Shown: one piece after another, positions 35,155 to 46,363 of the stretch | Numbering within the stretch: the first letter of the stretch is position 1 | How the letters are laid out: every line of letters begins with the position of its first letter | Assembly (NCBI GenBank): GCA_026129465.1 | Contig: JAHCIA010000001.1 | Span: forward strand, 1,063,964-1,127,963 | Origin: Flavobacteriales bacterium | Lineage (GTDB): Bacteria; Bacteroidota; Bacteroidia; Flavobacteriales_F; PHOS-HE28 | Reading direction: 5' to 3' | Length of the DNA stretch: 64,000 bases | Translations under genes and position numbers: made by a program | Notes under the pieces: generated by a model | Databases searched by the model: none | The model's input: only the letters and a program-made list of their open reading frames with translations | What the model was told of the DNA's origin: nothing

Positions 35155-36615
35155 ATGCGTATCCCGGCCACCTTCCTTGCCCTGTTCTTCGCCCAACTCC
35201 TGGCCATGCCCACCCAGGCCGCCGTGGAAGTGGTGGTGGAGACCAAGATCTTCCACATTCCCGGCAAGGGGCCGCGCGTGGAGGTGAACATGGCCATGAT
35301 CGGCGGCACCATGGCGATGGCCATCAACGAGCGCGGATTCCGCAGCGCGCGCGTGGAGGCGATCACCATCGTGGAGCGTGATGGCGCCATCATCGATTTC
35401 GCCAAGACCATCGTGGAGGGCATGGAGCGCACGGACAGCCTGGAGATGGACCTCCTGCACCAGGAGTTCTTCGACCTGGCCCCGGGCGACTACGAACTCA
35501 CCGTGGAACTGCGCGACCTGCATGGCGACATGGAGGATGTGACCCGCTACCGTTCGCCGCTGGCGGTGGGCGCACTGCCGGAAGGGATCCACATCTCCGA
35601 CGTGCTCTTCGCGGAACGCATCGAACCGGCTGGCGAAGGGGAGATGGCCAAGTATGGATACCGGGTGGTGCCCCTGATCAGCGACTACTACCCGCGCACC
35701 ATCTCGACCCTTGATCTCTACGCGGAGATCTACGGCACCGACAAGGTCTTCGGCGAGGAGAACCTCTACCTGCTCACCTACCAACTGGAGAACATGGAGA
35801 AGGGTGCGGTGGTGGGCGCATACAAGCGGAACGTGCGCGCCAAGGCCCGCAGCGTGGAACCGGTGATCGCCTCTTTCGACATCGCTTCGCTCCCTTCGGG
35901 GAACTACCTGGTGGCGATCGAAGTGCGCGACCAGCAGGGCCAGCTCATCGCGCGGCGCGATCGCATGCTGCAGCGCAACAACCCGGTGCGTTTCGACTAC
36001 GACCTGCAGGCCATGGAAGGGGTGGACCTCGCGAACACCTTCACCGGTGGCTTCACCAACGCCGACACCCTGGCGGAATTCGTCCGCTGCCTGCGCCCCA
36101 TCGCCGATCCCTTGGAGCGCAAGATCATCGACGACCGCTGGAAGGACCGTGACCTGGAACTGATGCAGCGCTTCTTCTACAGCTTCTGGGCCAACCGCGA
36201 CCACGACCCCGAGCGTGCCTGGCGCGAATACCGCGAGCAGGTGGTGAAGGTGAACCGGCTGTTCGGCTGCCGCGTGCTGCAGGGCCACGAGACCGATCGC
36301 GGCCGGGTCTATCTGAAGTATGGCGCGCCCAACTCCATGATGGACCGCTTGAACGAAATGGACGCCCTGCCCTACTCCATCTGGCACTACTACCGCGCCG
36401 GGCGCTACACCAACCGCCGGTTCGTGTTCTACCAGCCTTCCCTGGCCAGCAACTGCATGGAACTCATCCACAGCGAGGTGCCCGGCGAATTGAACAACCC
36501 GCGCTGGAACCAGATCATCCACAGCCGGAACAACGCCTTCCAGAACGTGGATCCCATGCCCGTGCAGCAGATCAGTGGCGATCGGGCACGGGAGTTCTTC
36601 GAGCTGCCGCGATGA
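35155..36615 (+). CDS. GWxTD-domain secreted protein
   Basis: A 486-residue protein with a signal peptide (ending MPTQA). Beta-rich repeats fill residues 25-300 and the GWxTD domain fills the C-terminal 170 residues: FFYSFWANRDHDPERAWREYR then DRGRVYLKYGAPNSMMDRLN and a terminal PYSIWHYYRAGR-to-NRRFVFY segment. GWxTD proteins are periplasmic or surface proteins of unknown biochemical function in Bacteroidota. The start at 35155 is fixed by the signal peptide and by the box 5 nt upstream. A small GAAA-loop hairpin (36622-36637) follows the stop and overlaps the next gene's promoter region. Confidence 0.9.
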   Translation: MRIPATFLALFFAQLLAMPTQAAVEVVVETKIFHIPGKGPRVEVNMAMIGGTMAMAINERGFRSARVEAITIVERDGAIIDFAKTIVEGMERTDSLEMDLLHQEFFDLAPGDYELTVELRDLHGDMEDVTRYRSPLAVGALPEGIHISDVLFAERIEPAGEGEMAKYGYRVVPLISDYYPRTISTLDLYAEIYGTDKVFGEENLYLLTYQLENMEKGAVVGAYKRNVRAKARSVEPVIASFDIASLPSGNYLVAIEVRDQQGQLIARRDRMLQRNNPVRFDYDLQAMEGVDLANTFTGGFTNADTLAEFVRCLRPIADPLERKIIDDRWKDRDLELMQRFFYSFWANRDHDPERAWREYREQVVKVNRLFGCRVLQGHETDRGRVYLKYGAPNSMMDRLNEMDALPYSIWHYYRAGRYTNRRFVFYQPSLASNCMELIHSEVPGELNNPRWNQIIHSRNNAFQNVDPMPVQQISGDRAREFFELPR

Positions 36616-36621
36616 CGGGCC

Positions 36622-36637
36622 TGCGGTGAAAACCGCA
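36622..36637 (+). other. small hairpin with a GAAA loop
   Basis: TGCGGT / ACCGCA arms close a GAAA loop 6 nt after the GWxTD stop. It overlaps the CAACTTCG box (36636-36643) of the next gene by two bases. There is no U tract, so it is a weak terminator candidate. Confidence 0.35.
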
Positions 36638-36651
36638 ACTTCGCCACCGGC

Positions 36652-37695
36652 ATGCGCACGGCCATCGTGATCCTCAACTGGAATGGCCGCCACTGGCTGG
36701 AAAGGACCCTGCCCTTGGTGCTGGCCCACAGCCACGGTGCGGAGGTGGTCGTCGCCGACAACGGCTCCACCGACGATACGCTCGCCTGGTTGAGCGCGGC
36801 GCATCCCACGGTGCGCCAAGTGCCGCTCGCCACCAACCTGGGCTTCGCGGGCGGATACAACGCCGCCCTGGCCCAAGTGGAAGCCGACCGTTACGTGCTG
36901 CTCAATTCCGACGTGGAGGCCACCCCGGGCTGGCTCGATCCGCTGCACGCCTTGCTGGACCGCGAACCACGGATGGCCGCCTGCCAACCCAAGGTGCTCG
37001 CCTTGCACGCGCGCGGCCGTTTCGAACACGCCGGTGCCGCTGGCGGCTTCATCGATCGCAACGGCTACCCCTTCTGCCGGGGCCGCATCTTCGACCTCAC
37101 CGAAGAGGACCACGGCCAGTACGACGACGAGCGCCACGTTTTCTGGGCCACCGGGGCCTGCATGATGATCCGCGCCGATGCCTTCCATGCCACCGGCGGC
37201 TTCCATGCCGAGCTCTTCGCGCACATGGAGGAGATCGACCTGTGCTGGCGGTTGCGGCGGACCGGTCACACCATCGGCTACACGAGCGCTTCCACGGTGT
37301 ACCACGCCGGAGGGGGCACGCTGGGCTATGGCAGTCCGCGCAAGACCTACCTCAATTTTCGCAACAGCCTCATCGTGCTTGTGCGCAACCTGCGGCGCTC
37401 TTCACCATGGCTGTTCATCCCCCGGCGCCTGGTGCTCGACCTGTGCGCCGCGCTGAAATTCCTGTTGGAAGGCCACAGCGCCCACGCCTGGCAGGTGCTG
37501 CGGGCCCATGCGCATTTTCTCGCCAGCCTGCCACAGGCCATGCACCAACGCCGGGAACTCCAGGCCCAAGAGCACGAACCGGACCTCACCGGCATGTACC
37601 TGCGCAGCATCGCCTATGATCGCTTCATCCTTGGATGGAAGCGCTTCAGCGATCTGGACCTGGCCGCCTTCGTTCAAGGCCGGCGCAACAGGTGA
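36652..37695 (+). CDS. GT2 glycosyltransferase, rhamnosyl-transferase-like
   Basis: A 347-residue GT-A enzyme: TAIVILNWNGRHWLERTLP at the N-terminus, VVVADNGSTDDT, ATNLGFAGGYNAAL, LLNSDVEATPGWL (the DxD-like site), and a later FAHMEEIDLCWRLRRTGHT with the catalytic acidic pair. The C-terminal 90 residues are basic and amphipathic (YLNFRNSLIVLVRNLRRSS), suggesting membrane association. It transfers a sugar to a growing glycan. A CAACTTCG box (36636-36643) lies 8 nt before the ATG. The 3' end overlaps the convergent aroQ gene by 22 nt. Confidence 0.9.
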   Translation: MRTAIVILNWNGRHWLERTLPLVLAHSHGAEVVVADNGSTDDTLAWLSAAHPTVRQVPLATNLGFAGGYNAALAQVEADRYVLLNSDVEATPGWLDPLHALLDREPRMAACQPKVLALHARGRFEHAGAAGGFIDRNGYPFCRGRIFDLTEEDHGQYDDERHVFWATGACMMIRADAFHATGGFHAELFAHMEEIDLCWRLRRTGHTIGYTSASTVYHAGGGTLGYGSPRKTYLNFRNSLIVLVRNLRRSSPWLFIPRRLVLDLCAALKFLLEGHSAHAWQVLRAHAHFLASLPQAMHQRRELQAQEHEPDLTGMYLRSIAYDRFILGWKRFSDLDLAAFVQGRRNR

Positions 37696-38099
37696 TCCAC
37701 CGCCAGCCGGTAGCCGTCCACGCCCAGACCCATCACGCCGCCCACGCACACGGCGCCCACCAGGGACACGTGCCGGAAGGGCTCGCGCGCCAGCAGGTTG
37801 CTGACATGCACCTCCACCACCGGTACCGGACAGGCCGCCACCGCATCGCGCAAGGCCACCGAGGTGTGCGCATAGCCACCGGCGTTCAGCACCACGCCCT
37901 TGCAGCGGCCCGCCGCCCCGTGGATCGCCCTTACCAACTCGCCTTCCAGTTCGCTCTGGAGGTGCTCGATCTCCACCTGGGGGAACTCGGACCGCAGCAG
38001 ATGGACCACCTCTTCCAGCGTGGTGCTGCCATAGATCGCCGGTTCGCGCGTGCCCAATAGACCGAGGTTGGGACCGTTGATGACCAGGATGCGGGACAT
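37674..38099 (-). CDS. aroQ: type II 3-dehydroquinate dehydratase
   Basis: A 141-residue enzyme of standard length. It catalyses the third step of the shikimate pathway (3-dehydroquinate to 3-dehydroshikimate) in the cytoplasm. Signatures are ILVINGPNLGLLGTREPAIYG with the catalytic Tyr, VLNAGGYAHTSVALRDAV, and VVEVHVSNLLAREPFR. The start at 38099 is the only one that begins with the family N-terminus. It is divergent from xerD, an arrangement seen often in Bacteroidota. Confidence 0.97.
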   Translation of the reverse strand: MSRILVINGPNLGLLGTREPAIYGSTTLEEVVHLLRSEFPQVEIEHLQSELEGELVRAIHGAAGRCKGVVLNAGGYAHTSVALRDAVAACPVPVVEVHVSNLLAREPFRHVSLVGAVCVGGVMGLGVDGYRLAVDHLLRRP

Positions 38100-38214
38100 G
38101 GGCGGGCGTGTTCGTGGCCGTGAAGTTGGGCGATCGCCGCGATCCACAGTGCGGCGTGGGGAATATCGCGACCAGCACCGGCCCGCAACGAAACGACACG
38201 GGGAACTTCGTGGC

Positions 38215-39135
38215 ATGGAACGTGATCCCGCGCTGGCGCGCTTCCGCATGCACCTGAAGCTGGAGCGTGGCCTCAGCGACCGCACGGTGGAGGCCTACCT
38301 GCGCGATGTGGGCAAGCTCTTCGCCTGGTGCGCTGATAGAAAGCCCGCCGTGGCCCCGGCCGCCGCGCAACTTGACGACCTGCAGGACTTCATCGCCGAC
38401 GTGGGCCGTTCGGGACTGCGTGCCACCAGCCAGGCGCGCCTGCTCAGCGCCGTGCGCGGGTTCTACCGCATGCTGCGGATCGAGCGCACCGTCACCGAGG
38501 ATCCATCCGAATTGCTGCAAAGCCCGCGCACCGGCCGGAAGCTGCCCGTCTTCCTCAGCACCCAGGAGATCGATGCCATGGTGAAGGCCATCGACATGAG
38601 CGCACCGCTCGCCCACCGCGACCGCGCGATCCTGGAAACGCTATACGGCTGTGGCCTGCGTGTGAGCGAATTGTGCGGGCTGCGCATCTCACGCCTGCAT
38701 TTCCACGAGGGCTTCGTGCGCGTGGTGGGCAAGGGCGACAAGGAGCGGCTGGTTCCCATAGGGCCGGAAGCGATGCGACAGATCACGGTGTGGTCGGAGC
38801 AGGAACGCGTGAAGCTCCGGGTGCGCAAGAACAGTGAGGACCTCGTCTTCCTCAACGCGCGCGGTGGCGGTCTTTCGCGCGTGGCGGTCTTCGGCCTGGT
38901 GAAGAAGCTGGCGGCGTTGGCGGGGGTCCGCAAGACGATCAGCCCACACACTTTCCGGCACTCCTTCGCCACGCACCTGGTGGAGGGCGGCGCCGACCTG
39001 CGCGCCGTGCAGGAGATGCTGGGCCATGCGAGTATCACCACCACGGAGATCTACACGCACCTGGACCGCGACTACCTCCGCAGCAACATCATGCGCTTCC
39101 ACCCCCGCGCGGGCCGTAAGGCGGCGGCGGGCTGA
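38215..39135 (+). CDS. xerD: tyrosine recombinase XerD
   Basis: A 306-residue recombinase that resolves chromosome dimers at dif with XerC and FtsK. The N-terminal SAM-like core-binding domain spans residues 1-100. The catalytic domain has the full tetrad: GCGLRVSEL (Arg149), HTFRHSF (His245, Arg248), MLGHASI (His271) and IYTHL (Tyr280). The ATG at 38215 is preferred; longer in-frame sequence overlaps aroQ. A GAACTTCG element (38203-38210) stands 4 nt before the ATG, the same spacing as at PdeM and OsmC. Confidence 0.95.
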   Translation: MERDPALARFRMHLKLERGLSDRTVEAYLRDVGKLFAWCADRKPAVAPAAAQLDDLQDFIADVGRSGLRATSQARLLSAVRGFYRMLRIERTVTEDPSELLQSPRTGRKLPVFLSTQEIDAMVKAIDMSAPLAHRDRAILETLYGCGLRVSELCGLRISRLHFHEGFVRVVGKGDKERLVPIGPEAMRQITVWSEQERVKLRVRKNSEDLVFLNARGGGLSRVAVFGLVKKLAALAGVRKTISPHTFRHSFATHLVEGGADLRAVQEMLGHASITTTEIYTHLDRDYLRSNIMRFHPRAGRKAAAG

Positions 39136-39144
39136 GGGTCGGCT

Positions 39145-40176
39145 TCAGGACAGGGAGCGCAGGCAGAGGTCCAGATGCCGTTTCAGGATGCCACCCATGC
39201 TCGCGGCCTTCTGGAACGCGGGTTCGCCATGATGATGGGCCAGTTCTTCCGCGAGTTGGCGCACATGCTCCGCTGATGACACCACATCGCGGTCCAGCAC
39301 ATCCAGCAGCCGGTCCACCTCCTCGTGGGCCAGCGCGTAGCGGCGACGCAGCAGGGCGCGCTCCTCGTTGCGGTACTGCAGGGCGGTCTCCGCGCCGATG
39401 ACGCGTTCGGCCATGCGCACGTAGGGCAGGTTCTCCTTGTAGAACTGCGGCAGGTAGATGCGCAGCCGGCCCTCGTAGCACTGCTGGTCGAAATCGATAC
39501 AGCGCAGCCGGTACTGCACCTGGTCCAGATCGTGGATCACGTCCACCACGAAGTTGTAAGCGCGCATGTCGCCCAGCAGCCGTGCGCAGCAACGCTCGTT
39601 GAACTTGACGAACTCCTTGCTCAGGCGCACCTCGTTCAAGGCACCGCCGTACCGCTGTGGTTCGGCGATGAAAGCGTCGCCCGGCACGCCGATGATGTGC
39701 TCCTCAACCAGCGTGTCCCCATCGCGCAGGTACTGGATGCGGTTGGGCGAGAGGTAGTGCTCCAACTCCAGCCCGTAGATGCGGCTCGCGTCGGTGCGCT
39801 TCACATAGAAATAGTCGTGGTTGTCGTTGATGAGGTTGATGATCTTGACACGGAAGGGCTGCGAGTTGCCGAAGGGACAGAAATCGACGCTGGCCACCGC
39901 GAGGTGCGAAATGCGGCGTCCACCGGCGATCAGCGCCTGGTAGGTCTCCACCAAGCGGCGGTGCGTGTCCTGCATCTCATCGGGCCGCAGCAGCACGGTG
40001 TTCCACAGCGTGGCGCGGCCCTGCGCGTCGGTGGTGGGCAGCAGGCTGTCGTAGCGCAGCAGGTCGCGGTAGGCGATCGGCAGGCCGGTCTCTCGGCCAT
40101 GGTCCTCCAGGAAACGCCGCAACTCCTCGCCCACCGGGTACAGGGGCTTGCGCTGGGCGATCTGGTTGTACTCCAT
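39145..40176 (-). CDS. conserved protein with kinase-like motifs, unknown function
   Basis: A 343-residue soluble protein I cannot assign to a named family. Motif reading suggests a kinase-like (HipA/APH-type) fold. YFYVKRTDASRIYGLELEH gives a candidate ATP lysine (Lys126) and Glu, and DTLVEEHIIGVPGD looks like a hinge segment. LLGDMRAYNFVV (Asp203, Asn208) parallels the catalytic GDLHxxN loop, and CIDFDQQ (Asp228) parallels the metal-binding DFG/DFE. The C-terminus is charged and helical. It begins 7 nt after the M1 peptidase stop on the same strand, so the two form an operon; xerD is convergent 9 nt away. The kinase assignment is inference only. Confidence 0.6.
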   Translation of the reverse strand: MEYNQIAQRKPLYPVGEELRRFLEDHGRETGLPIAYRDLLRYDSLLPTTDAQGRATLWNTVLLRPDEMQDTHRRLVETYQALIAGGRRISHLAVASVDFCPFGNSQPFRVKIINLINDNHDYFYVKRTDASRIYGLELEHYLSPNRIQYLRDGDTLVEEHIIGVPGDAFIAEPQRYGGALNEVRLSKEFVKFNERCCARLLGDMRAYNFVVDVIHDLDQVQYRLRCIDFDQQCYEGRLRIYLPQFYKENLPYVRMAERVIGAETALQYRNEERALLRRRYALAHEEVDRLLDVLDRDVVSSAEHVRQLAEELAHHHGEPAFQKAASMGGILKRHLDLCLRSLS

Positions 40177-40183
40177 GCGGCGG

Positions 40184-42619
40184 TCAGCGCAACACCTCGA
40201 AGCGCGCCGCACCCACGATGATGCCGTCGGTGGTGTTCACGCGCAGCACGTGCGCCCCGGCGGGAATGCCCTGCAGGTCGAGCGGCAGGCTGAAGGGCCC
40301 TTGGGCGGGTGCCGTTTCGCGGCGCAGGATGCGGCCGTCCAGACCAACCACATCGATCACCAGCGTGGCGGGCGCGTCCAGATGGCCACGCACCGTGATG
40401 CGATCGCGGGCCGGCACGGGGAAGACCTCCATCGGCCTGTACTCCGGTCCATCAGGACCGCTCACGGACACGATCTCCGTGGCCTTGCCGAAGGCGTACT
40501 GGCCCTTCTTCAGGTCCAGAAGCTGGATGTAGCCCGTGCCGTTGGTGAGGCTGCCCGCCACCACTTCCTGGCCGTTGTACACTTCCCAGGCGTGGCCGGG
40601 GCCGCTGCGGTAAAGCACGCAGATGCCCTCCTCGTTCCCGGCGATCAGCTCATGGTCCAGCTGGTTGGCGTTCGCGCCGTAGTAATAGAGGCGGCTGCGC
40701 AACACGGTGCCTGCGGGCCAGCGGCCGTCCACGGTCCAGTAGTGCGTGTTAGAGCGCGCGATCACATGGTCGCCGAGACCGTCATCATCGGGCCGAACCC
40801 AATAGTGCTCCACGCGGGTGAAGGTGCTGTCCACCAGGTTGTCCGCGTAAAGTCGGAAGTCCACGTAAGGCAGGATGGGGTCCAGCACCTGGCCCGGCGC
40901 CACGGTGATCTCATGGTCCAGGCGTGCCTGGTTCAAGCGCGCGTAGCGGTTCAGGGCCACCACAGCGGGCTCGAAGGGAAGCAGGGTGGCCACCGCGGTC
41001 ATGGCGCCACCCAATGTCACAAGCGTATCGTATACCTGCCCTGTGGCGGAGATGAAGCTCAGGTCCACCGGAACCTGCTGGTGGAATTCTTCAGCGGCGA
41101 GCAGCTTCTGCTGGATCTCCAGCCCCACCAGGTATTGGGCTCCCGTGGGAACGACCCACTTGTTGCGCACCTCGAAGACCCCGTAGCCCGGCGCGAAGAC
41201 CCAGGCATCGAAGAAGGGGTTGAGGTCCTGTCCGGTGACGGCCTCCAGCCGGTCGCGGAATTCATCGGCGTCCATGGTGGTGTAGGCGTACTGCTCCTGG
41301 ATGTCGCTCATGGCCTGGCGGAAGACCTCATCGCCGAGATAGCCGCGCAGGTTGTGCATCACCGCCGCGCCCTTGTAGTAGGTGTGCGTGCCGTAGATGT
41401 ACTGGTCGGGCATGGGCGAAAGGGCCTGGTAGCCACCGTCGTTCACATGGGCCTGGCGCAGGATGAAGACCAGGTTGTTCTTCACCGCGCGGCGAAGCCC
41501 CTCGGCGCCAGCCTGCCATTCCTCGATCAGATGGGCGCTGTACTCCGCCGGGCCTTCCTTCAGCCACATGTGGTTGTGCACATAGGGCGTCACGATGTTG
41601 CCCCACCAGTGGTGGCCCAACTCGTGGGTGAGCAGGCGGCGGTTGCTGGAGAGCGGCTGGCCGGTCATGAATTGCGGGTAGGCCACGTTGGTGGGGATCT
41701 CCAGCGCGCCGTCGGTGGTGAGCACGTAGCCCACACGATCGAAACCATAGGGTCCGAACCAGTGTTCGCAGGCATCGATCGCGTCGTCCAGGTCCACGAA
41801 GCGGGAGATCATGCCGTTCATGTTCGCGGGCTTGGCGTTCAGCGTCACCGGGATGTCGCCATTGAGGCCCTGGTGCGTCCAGGAATGCGTCTGGTAGTCG
41901 GCCACGGCGATGGCGCTCAGGTGCGTGGGGATGGGCTGCGGAATGTGGTAGGCGCGGATCACCGTGTCGCCACCGAGTTGTGTTTCGCCCAGGAAGGTGC
42001 CCTGCCCATGCAGACGGTAGGTGCCCGCGCTCTTCACGTGGTAGGTGTAGGTGGCGCGCTCAACGAAGCTGTCGAAGCAGGGGTACCACACCTTGCCGAA
42101 GTTGGGCGGTATGGTGCTGATGCCGATGCCCAGGTTGTAGATGTAGTTGCTTGCGAAGTAGAAGCCGCCCCATTGCGTGTCGCGCAGGGGGCTGCCCTGG
42201 TAGTGCACGGTGATGTCCAGCTCCTCGCCCACGGCCAGCGGCGGGTCCAGCGGAATGATGAGGAATTCGCCGTCGTGGTCGAAGTCCATAGGACCGCCCG
42301 GCCCGGTCACCGAATCCACCGTCAGGGCCAACAGGTCGAAGGTGATGCTCGTGCCTTCCTCCTGCAGGGCCTTGAAGCTCACGGTGGTGTGGCCCTTGAT
42401 CCACTGCCCGTTGTAGTCCGTCACATCCAGGTGGATGTCGTAGTGCAAAATGTCATGGATCTCGCTGCGCGCGATGGTCTCCTCGATCTGGCTGCGCTGC
42501 GCATCGGTCATGGGCGCGGGTTGAAAGCGCTGTCCGTGGAAATAGTGGCAACCGAAGGGTTCGGGTTGGGCGAACACGGCGGCGGGCAGCAACAGAAAGG
42601 GCAGGATGAGATGGCGCAT
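40184..42619 (-). CDS. secreted M1-family (aminopeptidase N-like) metallopeptidase with T9SS domain
   Basis: An 811-residue protein. Signal peptide (ending AVFAQ), M1 N-terminal beta-domain (about residues 40-240), and the zinc site HELGHHWWG (332-340) with the third ligand in WLKEGPAEY (Glu355, the canonical 18-residue spacing). The usual GAMEN exopeptidase motif reads GALEIPTN, so the substrate-recognition Glu is kept but the motif is changed. The last 80 residues form a sorting domain ending GIPAGAHVLRVNTTDG. A TAGCTTCG box (42646-42653) lies 26 nt upstream. It should trim peptides outside the cell. The kinase-like gene follows in the same operon. Confidence 0.9.
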   Translation of the reverse strand: MRHLILPFLLLPAAVFAQPEPFGCHYFHGQRFQPAPMTDAQRSQIEETIARSEIHDILHYDIHLDVTDYNGQWIKGHTTVSFKALQEEGTSITFDLLALTVDSVTGPGGPMDFDHDGEFLIIPLDPPLAVGEELDITVHYQGSPLRDTQWGGFYFASNYIYNLGIGISTIPPNFGKVWYPCFDSFVERATYTYHVKSAGTYRLHGQGTFLGETQLGGDTVIRAYHIPQPIPTHLSAIAVADYQTHSWTHQGLNGDIPVTLNAKPANMNGMISRFVDLDDAIDACEHWFGPYGFDRVGYVLTTDGALEIPTNVAYPQFMTGQPLSSNRRLLTHELGHHWWGNIVTPYVHNHMWLKEGPAEYSAHLIEEWQAGAEGLRRAVKNNLVFILRQAHVNDGGYQALSPMPDQYIYGTHTYYKGAAVMHNLRGYLGDEVFRQAMSDIQEQYAYTTMDADEFRDRLEAVTGQDLNPFFDAWVFAPGYGVFEVRNKWVVPTGAQYLVGLEIQQKLLAAEEFHQQVPVDLSFISATGQVYDTLVTLGGAMTAVATLLPFEPAVVALNRYARLNQARLDHEITVAPGQVLDPILPYVDFRLYADNLVDSTFTRVEHYWVRPDDDGLGDHVIARSNTHYWTVDGRWPAGTVLRSRLYYYGANANQLDHELIAGNEEGICVLYRSGPGHAWEVYNGQEVVAGSLTNGTGYIQLLDLKKGQYAFGKATEIVSVSGPDGPEYRPMEVFPVPARDRITVRGHLDAPATLVIDVVGLDGRILRRETAPAQGPFSLPLDLQGIPAGAHVLRVNTTDGIIVGAARFEVLR

Positions 42620-42645
42620 GGGTGGAATGGCTTCAGAGCGGAGCC

Positions 42646-42653
42646 CGAAGCTA
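42646..42653 (-). promoter_or_regulatory. -7 box TAGCTTCG for the M1 peptidase gene
   Basis: A TAnnTTCG box on the minus strand, 26 nt before the start at 42619. Confidence 0.45.
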
Positions 42654-42770
42654 CAACGGCGGGCGATCACACCATGGCCGGGCCGCCATGCGTTGAGGTC
42701 TCCCCAACTTCGCAGGCCGCCATTCGTAGGAACGGCCGTCCGTAGGAAGAAGGACCATCACCCGGCATAC

Positions 42771-45236
42771 ATGAGCACCACCCCCTACCTGAAATGGCTC
42801 CACGAGGTGGAGCTCTCCGACATCGACACCGTGGGCGGCAAGAACGCCAGCCTGGGAGAGATGATCCAGCACCTCGGCAAGCTCGGGGTTTCCGTGCCCG
42901 GCGGCTTCGTGGTCACCGTGGCCAGCTACCACGCCTTCATCGAGGCCAACGAGCTGGACCAGAAGATCCGCGACATCGTGGCGGGGCTGGACGCGGACGA
43001 TGTGGAGAACATCCGGCGCACCGGTCTGGCCGTGCGCACCCTGATCAAGAACGGCAAGTTCCCCGAGCCCATCTGGAAGGGCATCCTGGCGCATTATGCC
43101 GAGATGAGCCAGCGATACGGCCAGGAGCAGACCGATGTGGCCGTGCGCAGCAGCGCCACCGCCGAGGACCTGCCCGATGCCAGTTTCGCCGGGCAGCAGG
43201 AGACCTTCCTCAACATCCGCGGCCCGCAGGACCTGATCAGCGCCGTGCGCAACTGCTTCGCCTCCCTGTGGACCGACCGCGCCATCGTGTACCGCCAGAC
43301 CCGGAACTACGATCACTTCGAAGTGGGCCTCAGCGTGGGGGTGCAGAAGATGGTGCGCTCCGACCTGGGCAGCAGCGGCGTGGCCTTCAGCCTCGATACC
43401 GAAAGCGGTTTCAAGGAGGTCGTCCTCATCAACGGCAGCTATGGCCTGGGCGAGATGGTGGTGCAGGGCGCGGTGAGCCCGGACGAGTTCCTGGTGTTCA
43501 AGCCCACGCTGGCGCAAGGCTATAGCGCCATCATCGAGAAGAAGATCGGCCACAAGGACCGCAAGATGATCTACGGCGTGGAGCCCGGGAAGCCCACGCT
43601 TGTCATTCCCACCGAGCGCAGCCAGCGCAACCGCTTCTGCATCACCGACGAGCAGGCGCTGGAGATCGCGCGCAGCGTCACCGCCATCGAGAAGTACTAT
43701 TCCGAGAAGAAGGGCCACTGGTGCCCCATGGATGTGGAGTGGGCGGTGGACGGCCTCACCGGCGGCCTCTTCATCGTGCAGGCGCGGCCCGAGACCATAC
43801 ACAGCCAGAAAGACGATGACCGCGTGGTGGAGTACAAACTCGACCACGATGCCGCTCCAGGAGCTTCACAACCCAAGGTCATCACCAAGGGCATCGCCAT
43901 CGGCGACCGTGTGGGGGCCGGCAAGGTGCGCATCCTCTTCAGCCTCGACGGGCGTGGCGGCGGCACCGACGGCAAGGACTTCCAACAGGGCGACGTGCTG
44001 GTGACCGACATGACCGACCCCGACTGGGAGCCGATCATGAAGAAGGCCAGCGCCATCATCACCAACAAGGGCGGCCGCACCTGCCACGCGGCGATCGTGG
44101 CGCGCGAAATGGGCGTGCCCGCCATCGTGGGCTGCGGCAACGCCACCGAACTGCTGGACACCGGCATGGAGGTGACCGCCAGCTGCTGCGAAGGCGACAA
44201 CGGTGTGATCTACCAGGGCATCATCCCCTTCCGCAAGGAAGAGACGATGCTGAACGACCTGCCCGCGGTGCGCACCCCCATCATGCTCAACGTGGCCAGC
44301 CCGGACCTCGCCTTCAAGTTCGCCGCGCTGCCCAACGCCGGCGTGGGCCTGGCCCGCGAGGAGTTCATCATCAACAACTACATCCAGGCGCACCCGCTGG
44401 CCCTGCTCCAGCACAAGGAACTCGGCGATGTCACCCTCAGCGGCAAGATCAGCTACCTCATCCACGGCTACGAGGACGAGGAGACCTACTTCGTGAAGCG
44501 CCTCAGCTACGGCATCGCCAAGATCGCCGCGGCCTTCCACCCCAACAAGGTGATCGTGCGCTTCAGCGATTTCAAGAGCAACGAGTACCGCAATCTGCTT
44601 GGTGGCGAACACTTCGAGCCGCACGAGGAGAACCCCATGATCGGCTGGCGCGGCGCCTCGCGGTACTACAGCGAAACGTACAAGGAGGCCTTCGGCATGG
44701 AGTGCAAGGCCATCCGCCGGGTGCGCGAGAAGATGGGCCTGAAGAACGTGGTGGTGATGATCCCCTTCTGCCGCACCGTGGAGGAACTGCACGCGGTGAC
44801 CACCGTGATGAAGGAATACGGCCTGGAGCGCGGCAGGGAGGGACTCGAACTGTTCCTGATGGCCGAGCTGCCCAGCAACATCATGATGGCCGAGGAGTTC
44901 GCCCAGCACATCGACGGGTTCTCCATCGGCAGCAACGACCTGACCCAGCTCACACTCGGTCTCGACCGTGACAGCGCCTTGGTGAGCCACCTCTACGACG
45001 AGCGCAACCCCGCCGTGAAGCGTATGCTGACGATGCTGATCGAAAGCGCCAAACGCACAGGCACCAAGGTGGGCATCTGCGGGCAAGGACCTTCGGACTT
45101 CCCGGACTTCGCGCAATTCCTGGTGGAACTCGGCATCGACAGCATCAGCGTGACACCGGACAGCCTGCTGAAGACGCGAAGAGCGATCGCGGAGGTGGAA
45201 CAGGCGATCGCCGGGAACGGGGTGGCGGCGCGCTGA
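42771..45236 (+). CDS. ppsA: phosphoenolpyruvate synthase
   Basis: An 821-residue enzyme that makes PEP from pyruvate and ATP with AMP and phosphate as products, the entry to gluconeogenesis. The N-terminal ATP-grasp region shows VGGKNASLGEMI, AVRSSATAEDLPDASFAGQQ and VRSDLGSSGVAFSLDT. The swivelling phosphohistidine domain has GGRTCHAAIVAREMG (His439). The C-terminal TIM barrel ends in GICGQGPSDFPDFAQFLVE. The length and WLHEVELSDIDTVGGK start fit PpsA rather than pyruvate phosphate dikinase. The ATG at 42771 is chosen because upstream in-frame codons overlap the divergent M1 gene. A CAACTTCG box lies at 42705-42712. Confidence 0.95.
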   Translation: MSTTPYLKWLHEVELSDIDTVGGKNASLGEMIQHLGKLGVSVPGGFVVTVASYHAFIEANELDQKIRDIVAGLDADDVENIRRTGLAVRTLIKNGKFPEPIWKGILAHYAEMSQRYGQEQTDVAVRSSATAEDLPDASFAGQQETFLNIRGPQDLISAVRNCFASLWTDRAIVYRQTRNYDHFEVGLSVGVQKMVRSDLGSSGVAFSLDTESGFKEVVLINGSYGLGEMVVQGAVSPDEFLVFKPTLAQGYSAIIEKKIGHKDRKMIYGVEPGKPTLVIPTERSQRNRFCITDEQALEIARSVTAIEKYYSEKKGHWCPMDVEWAVDGLTGGLFIVQARPETIHSQKDDDRVVEYKLDHDAAPGASQPKVITKGIAIGDRVGAGKVRILFSLDGRGGGTDGKDFQQGDVLVTDMTDPDWEPIMKKASAIITNKGGRTCHAAIVAREMGVPAIVGCGNATELLDTGMEVTASCCEGDNGVIYQGIIPFRKEETMLNDLPAVRTPIMLNVASPDLAFKFAALPNAGVGLAREEFIINNYIQAHPLALLQHKELGDVTLSGKISYLIHGYEDEETYFVKRLSYGIAKIAAAFHPNKVIVRFSDFKSNEYRNLLGGEHFEPHEENPMIGWRGASRYYSETYKEAFGMECKAIRRVREKMGLKNVVVMIPFCRTVEELHAVTTVMKEYGLERGREGLELFLMAELPSNIMMAEEFAQHIDGFSIGSNDLTQLTLGLDRDSALVSHLYDERNPAVKRMLTMLIESAKRTGTKVGICGQGPSDFPDFAQFLVELGIDSISVTPDSLLKTRRAIAEVEQAIAGNGVAAR

Positions 45237-45256
45237 GCGCCACGATGGCAACCGGG

Positions 45257-45264
45257 TACTTTTG
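45257..45264 (+). promoter_or_regulatory. perfect -7 box TACTTTTG for the secreted paralogue pair
   Basis: It lies 28 nt before the ATG at 45293. Confidence 0.5.
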
Positions 45265-45292
45265 TCGGCGTCTGTCCTACGATCGCCGATCG

Positions 45293-46363
45293 ATGCGACC
45301 ACTCGCCCTTCTTCCTCTCTGCCTTGCTTCAGCGTCAGCGCACACGCAGGTCCCTGTCGAGATCCAGTGGTCGGCGTTGAACGCCTTCGGCAGCGAGGCC
45401 CTGGCCGCGATCGCGCCTCCGCGCCTTTGTGCCGACAACGGACGCACAGCTTGGATGCTTTACGATCTGGCCCTCCAATGGACCACGAGCGACGGGATCA
45501 TCCGGCGTTTCGACCAGCATGGTGTACCGCTCACCGGTTCTTGGCCCGAGGTCGGTTACATCGGCTGCGGTTCGTTGGATCGTCCGATCGACTTCGTCGT
45601 GCGCAACGATTCCCTATGGGGGATCTCCTACCGGCAGTTCCTCTCTGGCGACCAGGACATCCTGTATTGCGCCCAGGCTCCGGGCGGCAGCTACGAACCG
45701 GACCACGCGGCGAACGGCCCTGCCTTGGCCGATGTTGTGTTCGATCTTTTCGTGTCGGGCAGCGGCTGGTACCTCTGCTCCGGAAGCATGGTGTCCTTCA
45801 ATGAAATGGAAGGCCGCATCCTCAAGCTGGACCACAGTGCCAATGTGCTCTGGGAAACGCCGATGGGCCCCGCCACTTTCGGGAACCTGACCCGTTTGGC
45901 CCGCAAAGGCGACTCCCTCGCCCTGGCCGCCTTCCCCCTTCTGTTCTGGCTGGATACGAGCAATGGTGCGGTGATCGGGAGCGCCGTGCTCTACGAGGCG
46001 GAGGAAGGCAGCGGACGCATCACCGTACACGATGGCCAATTGAGCTGGGCGGTATCCACCGGCGGTGCGTTGCGCTTCGGCCGACTCGGTGCTGATGGCG
46101 AACCCTTGTGGAGTGGCAGTACATCGGCGCATTCCGTGGCCGGCATCGGTGTGGACGATCAAGGCCGTCTTTGGATCGGTGGGTCCGTCCCCGGCAGCGG
46201 CATGATCACATGCATCAGCCCCGACGGCATGCCGATGGGGACATGGCCTTACGCCGCATCGATCTCCGACCTGCGATTCGCCGATGGCCGCCTCCTATGG
46301 ACCGGCAAGTTCGAGCAGGGGTCCGATGCGTCCTACCTCATCTCCACCATCCCGCAACCATGA
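45293..46363 (+). CDS. secreted beta-propeller-like protein without sorting domain
   Basis: A 356-residue protein. Signal peptide MRPLALLPLCLASASAHTQ precedes a repeated strand pattern (DLALQWTTSDGIIRRFDQHG, GRLGADGEPLWSG, GVDDQGRLWIGGS) suggestive of a beta-propeller. Its end (GTWPYAASISDLRFADGRLL, then SYLISTIPQP) lines up with the region just before the sorting domain of the next gene. It therefore looks like a paralogue that has lost, or never had, a T9SS signal. The stop overlaps the next start by ATGA. Catalytic residues are not recognisable. Confidence 0.7.
   Translation: MRPLALLPLCLASASAHTQVPVEIQWSALNAFGSEALAAIAPPRLCADNGRTAWMLYDLALQWTTSDGIIRRFDQHGVPLTGSWPEVGYIGCGSLDRPIDFVVRNDSLWGISYRQFLSGDQDILYCAQAPGGSYEPDHAANGPALADVVFDLFVSGSGWYLCSGSMVSFNEMEGRILKLDHSANVLWETPMGPATFGNLTRLARKGDSLALAAFPLLFWLDTSNGAVIGSAVLYEAEEGSGRITVHDGQLSWAVSTGGALRFGRLGADGEPLWSGSTSAHSVAGIGVDDQGRLWIGGSVPGSGMITCISPDGMPMGTWPYAASISDLRFADGRLLWTGKFEQGSDASYLISTIPQP

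Follow-up and report, generated by a model that had tools for sequence, protein, structure and literature searches.

A conserved Bacteroidota protein of unnamed family with a predicted PI3K/PIKK-like kinase fold

The window analysed here, a 64,000-nucleotide stretch of a Flavobacteriales genome, encodes on its minus strand a 343-residue protein whose gene follows that of an M1 peptidase. The locus raises the question of what kind of protein this is, how widely it occurs, and on what it may act. The first-pass annotation, made without database searches, had described an orphan with HipA/APH-like kinase motifs, possibly an undescribed kinase or phosphotransferase, in an operon with the peptidase. 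Its observation of a 343-residue reading frame with these motifs, placed 7 nt after the peptidase gene, is confirmed, while its interpretation as a whole is partly supported.

The reading frame opens with an ATG at 40176 and its stop lies at 39145; no signal peptide is apparent in it by eye. An alternative GTG start at 40212 would add 12 residues; since homologues align from about residue 1-7, the ATG is favoured. The TGA of the peptidase ORF ends 7 nt before this ATG. Downstream, a plus-strand ORF (38050-39135), tyrosine recombinase-like by its motif, converges on the kinase gene. Rfam gave no match in positions 36000-46000 of the window. The features of the locus are as follows.

39145..40176, minus strand: kinase-fold protein, 343 aa (ORF translation, AlphaFold, homologues)
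40184..42670, minus strand: M1-like secreted peptidase, 828 aa, 7 nt upstream (Peptidase_M1, E 1.7e-22)
39856..39858, minus strand: Pro107, putative P-loop linking N-lobe strands 1 and 2 (129/129 rows; position in the AlphaFold model)
39781..39801, minus strand: Lys126-x2-Asp129-x2-Arg132, end of beta3 and start of alphaC, putative ATP lysine (K126, D129 and R132 in 129/129 rows)
39703..39705, minus strand: Glu158, hinge (129/129 rows; beta5 is residues 155-159)
39553..39573, minus strand: catalytic loop G202-D203-M-R-x-x-N208 (G202, M204 and N208 in 129/129 rows, D203 in 128/129)
39487..39495, minus strand: putative metal-binding D228-F-D230 (both Asp in 129/129 rows)
39424..39486, minus strand: activation-loop segment, residues 231-251 (QQ..EG....LPQF.KEN.P; conserved in 129 rows)

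The four motifs read in the first pass are all present, namely YFYVKR with K126, VEEHIIGVPGD with E158, LLGDMRAYNFVV with D203 and N208, and CIDFDQQ with D228. Conservation was counted over 129 distinct rows from 142, with an earlier count on 110 fetched rows. K126, D129, R132, E139, E158, G163, G202, M204, N208, D228, D230, Q231, P243 and N249 are invariant in all 129 distinct rows, and D203 and E137 are each found in 128. The 110-row set gave the same picture, with K126, E158, G163, N208, D228 and D230 in 110/110 and D203 in 109/110. Conservation of the motifs in homologues, set beforehand as a test, is borne out by K126, N208 and D228 (129/129) and D203 (128/129). As K126, E158, N208, D228 and D230 are kept in every row, and D203 in all but one, the motifs are not due to chance. 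The sole row with Tyr at D203 is L013 (G022:C164), from a fragmented genome, and reflects either a sequencing error or an inactive copy.

The segment that follows the putative metal-binding motif is also strongly conserved. Besides Q231, P243 and N249, which are found in all 129 rows, Q232 is kept in 128, K247 in 120, and E235 and G236 in 118 each. The loop after D228 thus varies hardly more than the catalytic residues do, and this suggests a single conserved target. In the N-lobe, the putative P-loop at Pro107 has no GxGxxG, and may be the equivalent of the PI3K P-loop.

To examine the fold, we modelled the window protein with AlphaFold from 61 sequences. The model (pLDDT 94.3, pTM 0.91) shows a two-lobed kinase fold. 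The core comprises beta strands 92-99, 108-114 and 120-127, the last carrying K126, and a helix at 130-142, followed by strands 149-152 and 155-159, with the hinge residue E158, and a helix at 182-198. The catalytic loop falls near residues 200-208, and two more strands, 209-215 and 220-226, then lead to D228 and the C-lobe helices. Ahead of the kinase core, an N-terminal piece contains strands 44-49 and 55-62 and a helix at 65-84. A second model, of a homologue 46% identical to the window protein (L084), reached a pLDDT of 90.9.

Structural searches with both models returned kinases. For the window protein, the top Foldseek match in the PDB was Drosophila VPS34 (2x6h, E 1.8e-5); 58 matches had E <= 0.001, the best 50 of which were all kinase-type, at low TM-scores of mostly 0.2-0.4. 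For L084, Foldseek gave 22 matches at E <= 0.001, those listed being kinase-type, in a ranking led by protein kinases and pseudokinases, again with low TM-scores. VIA-align, which took in 983 alignable chains from Foldseek's top 1000, gave a more specific result. Its best 50 of 983 for the window protein were all PI3K, PI4K or PIKK structures (Z 13.4 to 11.7), headed by ATM (8oxo, Z 13.4, rmsd 4.8, 276 aligned residues). The best 50 for L084 were again only PI3K, PI4K or PIKK (Z 13.4 to 11.1), headed by VPS34 (7rsv, Z 13.4, rmsd 4.6, 274 aligned). Against predicted viral proteins, the structure matches were mostly Ser/Thr kinases of giant viruses. That two proteins 46% identical both model as two-lobed kinases, with kinase-type matches from Foldseek and VIA-align, upholds the kinase fold proposed in the first pass, and the prediction of a two-lobe fold of the protein-kinase-like (PKL) superfamily is well supported. 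The likeness to HipA and APH proposed there fared differently: neither was among the best 50 VIA rows for either protein, although these families may lie further down, and the nearest folds in those rows were PI3K/PI4K/PIKK, which we regard with moderate support as the nearest subgroup by predicted fold.

Sequence comparison gave no such assignment. The window protein had no match in Pfam or NCBIfam even at E 10, including PF00454, HipA_C, APH (PF01636) and PF00069. PHROGs returned one match at E 0.38, PADLOC none, and a PDB sequence search gave no convincing match, so that the earlier statement that no named family is apparent stands. PF00454 was absent among the best 25 of 31 families for the 61 members of the family alignment (A1), and its profile matched 0/118 genomes of the phylum. 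Profile-profile comparison with hhalign gave a probability of 0.3 and a meaningless alignment between the family alignment and four PDB-verified PI3K/PIKK domains, with shallow profiles; against 19 HipA rows from relatives and six protein-kinase rows it gave 0.3 and 0.1. The family HMM scored the four PI3K/PIKK domains no better than shuffled sequences. With no convincing database match and null profile comparisons, the protein appears to represent a separate family of the protein-kinase-like fold.

One stretch of the sequence did discriminate. A catalytic-loop window anchored at the catalytic Asp gave z 3.10-3.55 (mean 3.34) against the four PI3K/PIKK domains, compared with means of 1.55 for 19 HipA rows and 1.59 for five protein-kinase rows. 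No separation was seen with the windows set on Lys126 (means 1.71, 1.65 and 1.51 for PI3K/PIKK, HipA and protein kinases) and on D228 (1.72, 1.08 and 1.47), leaving the catalytic loop as the only window that set PI3K/PIKK apart from the other two. The likeness to a PI3K-type core would therefore be structural, with a few motif details. Membership of PF00454 was rejected, as a profile match was absent and profile-profile comparison negative, and membership of HipA or APH was rejected for want of a Pfam profile match.

These motif details can be set beside known kinases. With PI3K/PI4K/PIKK enzymes (PF00454, such as VPS34, PI4K-beta, ATM and mTOR), the family has in common the two-lobe fold (about 245-283 residues at Z 11-13), a K-x2-D-x2-R motif following beta3, a G-D-x4-N catalytic loop and an I-D-F metal motif. 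PI3K/PIKK sequences read K-x2-[DE]-D-L-R where the window protein has K126-x2-D129-x2-R132, and the residue after I-D-F is Asp in the family and Gly in PI3K/PI4K/PIKK. The protein has only 343 residues, without helical, FAT or other accessory domains, and sequence homology to these enzymes is not detectable. HipA (PF07804), a bacterial kinase that falls in the same broad class of folds, shares the D-x4-N catalytic loop, but its rows carry AYD where the family has IDFD, and its profile does not match. Phosphotransferases of the APH and choline kinase type are small-molecule kinases on a kinase fold; they gave no Pfam match to the window protein and do not occur among the best 50 VIA rows.

Newly described bacterial kinase-like families offer a further comparison. 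In PMC9758233, a catalogue of such families, two widespread ones, Lani_1194 and Lcin_0519, are fused to methyltransferases, with a methyltransferase domain in 94-96% of these kinase-methyltransferase families; Lani_1194 homologues are present in Flavobacteriales, and Arg replaces the ATP Lys in Lani_1194. By that account, the window family differs in having Lys in 129/129 rows and no recognised second domain. In open-licence PMC literature, which is not searchable by sequence, we found no account of the present family.

Could the protein be a pseudokinase, or an ATP-using enzyme with other chemistry, such as AMPylation, on a kinase fold? Kinase folds with other chemistry have precedents in SelO and SidJ. 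Against this, the family keeps its Lys, catalytic Asp, Asn and metal Asp, residues that the known other-chemistry kinase folds usually alter or rearrange, and we consider such a function unlikely. It is instead likely that the protein works in the cytosol as a catalytically competent kinase, and that it belongs to an uncharacterised family having the protein-kinase-like fold, nearest in predicted shape to PI3K/PI4K/PIKK. From the conservation and the predicted fold we infer ATP binding and catalysis. Mg-ATP would bind between the two lobes, its phosphates held by K126, for which E137 or E139 of alphaC is the probable partner; D203 would act as the catalytic base, and N208 and D228 would hold the metal. 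The near-invariant activation loop would bind one conserved target, to which the gamma-phosphate would be passed.

The word "orphan" used in the first pass does not describe the family. Among 58 relatives, the kinase was found in 33, comprising 25/35 genomes of the same genus (window genome included) and 8/23 others. Its profile matched 81/296 sampled genomes of the phylum. Two were dropped, G087 as marginal and G303 as a broken remnant with stops, which leaves 79 full-length carriers, every one of them at E below 1e-116; 56 belong to the same class as the window and 23 to other classes. Presence of the kinase is all or nothing, and the gene is single copy in every carrier except G145, which has two. 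The second, diverged copy in that genome (G145:C3:105227-106219; L188) lies beside clpP and clpX. The remnant in G303 (G303:C1:3158145-3158407) is broken by in-frame stops, showing that the gene can be lost. As the kinase is missing or fragmentary in 217/296 genomes, the gene is dispensable within the phylum.

A scan of named genomes recovered at least 579 relatives among at least 590 pattern matches, from which 80 loci were kept. These include Pontibacter, Hymenobacter, Rufibacter, Algoriphagus and Fulvivirga, which we take to be Cytophagales, and Pedobacter, presumably Sphingobacteriales; by the same assumption, the set also spans Flavobacteriales and Chitinophagales. Outside Bacteroidota, homologues were seen on contigs of two MAGs, L058 from Nannocystaceae and L087 from Verrucomicrobia. 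A quick tree places both on long branches amid rows from Bacteroidota, and they may reflect transfer or binning error. A plasmid search gave no kinase match, and 39 pattern stretches on viral contigs included no relative of the kinase.

We then considered the neighbouring genes. The pairing with the peptidase, offered in the first pass as a clue, stands as a 7-nt gap but not as a guide to function, as the adjacency is local to the genus. The M1 gene adjoins the kinase in 9/33 carriers, all of the same genus (9/25); for the remaining 16 carriers of the genus, the best M1 match lies on a different contig from the kinase, and outside the genus it lies on other contigs in the seven carriers with listed M1 positions (that of G047 is unlisted). 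M1 orthologues also occur in same-genus genomes without the kinase (G008, G010, G013, G019 and G023). The peptidase operon was therefore rejected as a functional clue, being lineage-specific, with the M1 gene present also where the kinase is absent. The short gap and the nine adjacent pairs notwithstanding, we consider it highly improbable that the kinase serves as a functional partner of the peptidase, which is probably a neighbour only.

A survey of the 80 loci found no neighbour that recurs beyond near relatives. Sporadic neighbours, several named by eye, include a TroA-like binding protein, a LytTR regulator, an aldolase, topoisomerase IV and PPDK. In the window, a PPDK-like ORF (42606-45236, by eye) falls in one cluster with the gene that immediately precedes the kinase in L039 and L040, perhaps a trace of an older gene order.

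Elsewhere in the phylum, a different gene pair was observed. At 20 further loci, a GT4 glycosyltransferase gene lies just upstream of the kinase in 4, and all four match the BshA equivalog at 552-581 bits (cut-off 273.7). BshA was placed in every one of the 79 carriers. In 15/23 carriers of other classes, from 6/8 families, bshA is directly upstream on the same strand; these are all five f34 genomes, all six f50 genomes and the single f46, f60, f62 and f64 genomes. The pair occurs in 0/8 genomes of f39 and f58 and in 0/56 carriers of the window's class. Loci with the kinase directly downstream of bshA include L176, L179, L180, L181, L187 and L189 (genomes G060, G233, G086, G139, G285 and G237), and at L181 there is a 4-nt overlap between the two ORFs. 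Six kinases from lineages with the pair are 57-70% identical to one another and 41-46% identical to the window protein. Conservation extends in part to the surroundings of the pair, where neighbouring genes are partly shared.

The first gene of bacillithiol synthesis is bshA. It is near-universal in the sample (288/296), so its co-occurrence with the kinase is uninformative, and only gene order supports a link. Bacillithiol or its N-methyl form is reported from across Bacteroidetes in PMC6282198, in whose text the word "kinase" was not found. Replacement of BshC by the kinase was considered and rejected, as BshC is present in 291/296 genomes and none of the five without it carries the kinase. 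The bacillithiol link, taken from gene order with bshA, is an unproven lead, and the best functional one that we have. The fuller proposal, in which a Bacteroidota-wide, PI3K/PIKK-shaped kinase on a branch near the root of that fold acts in bacillithiol metabolism or thiol-redox signalling, in an operon with bshA in several lineages, is tentative and on balance doubtful.

Two other substrate classes were weighed. A strict lipid kinase, acting on phosphoinositides or other lipids as a bacterial relative of VPS34/PI4K, would accord with VPS34 and PI4K-beta among the best VIA matches and with the conserved activation loop. Inositol-1-phosphate synthase (PF01658), however, is absent from the window genome, is found in 4/58 relatives, and among the 33 carriers occurs only in G005 and G021. 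Since the synthase is mostly absent, phosphatidylinositol is an unlikely substrate, and was set aside as a candidate; imported inositol is possible, and other lipids are unaffected by this argument. Taken with the lack of PF00454 in all 118 phylum genomes, this makes a lipid kinase quite unlikely in our view.

A Ser/Thr protein kinase that works as HipA or a PIKK does, with one conserved protein as its target, is a real possibility, although we lean against it. It fits the presence of PIKKs (ATM, mTOR, Tel1, SMG1 and ATR) among the VIA matches, the near-invariant activation loop and the single copy per genome outside G145. The window genome, which has one separate HipA_C gene, gave no PF00069 match. 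Arguing the other way, the protein itself has no HipA_C match, and no recurrent partner gene adjoins it in the 80 loci. Judged on the models and the conserved motifs, the protein is most likely active as an ATP phosphotransferase on a single conserved target, slightly more likely a small metabolite than a protein. Given the bshA gene pair in other lineages, bacillithiol metabolism or its control is the first place to look.

Overall, the protein is real and conserved, and is probably an active kinase; it belongs to a family without a name, and its predicted fold is like that of PI3K/PIKK. A large phylum thus appears to carry a conserved kinase family missed by Pfam and NCBIfam. The protein's compact size, and its single copy in every sampled carrier but one, make it well suited to test. 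It would provide a minimal stand-alone PI3K-like catalytic core to set against the eukaryotic lipid and DNA-damage kinases, and possibly a first kinase with a tie to bacillithiol. Even with a mundane target, the finding would give a name to a hypothetical protein carried by about a quarter of the sampled Bacteroidota.
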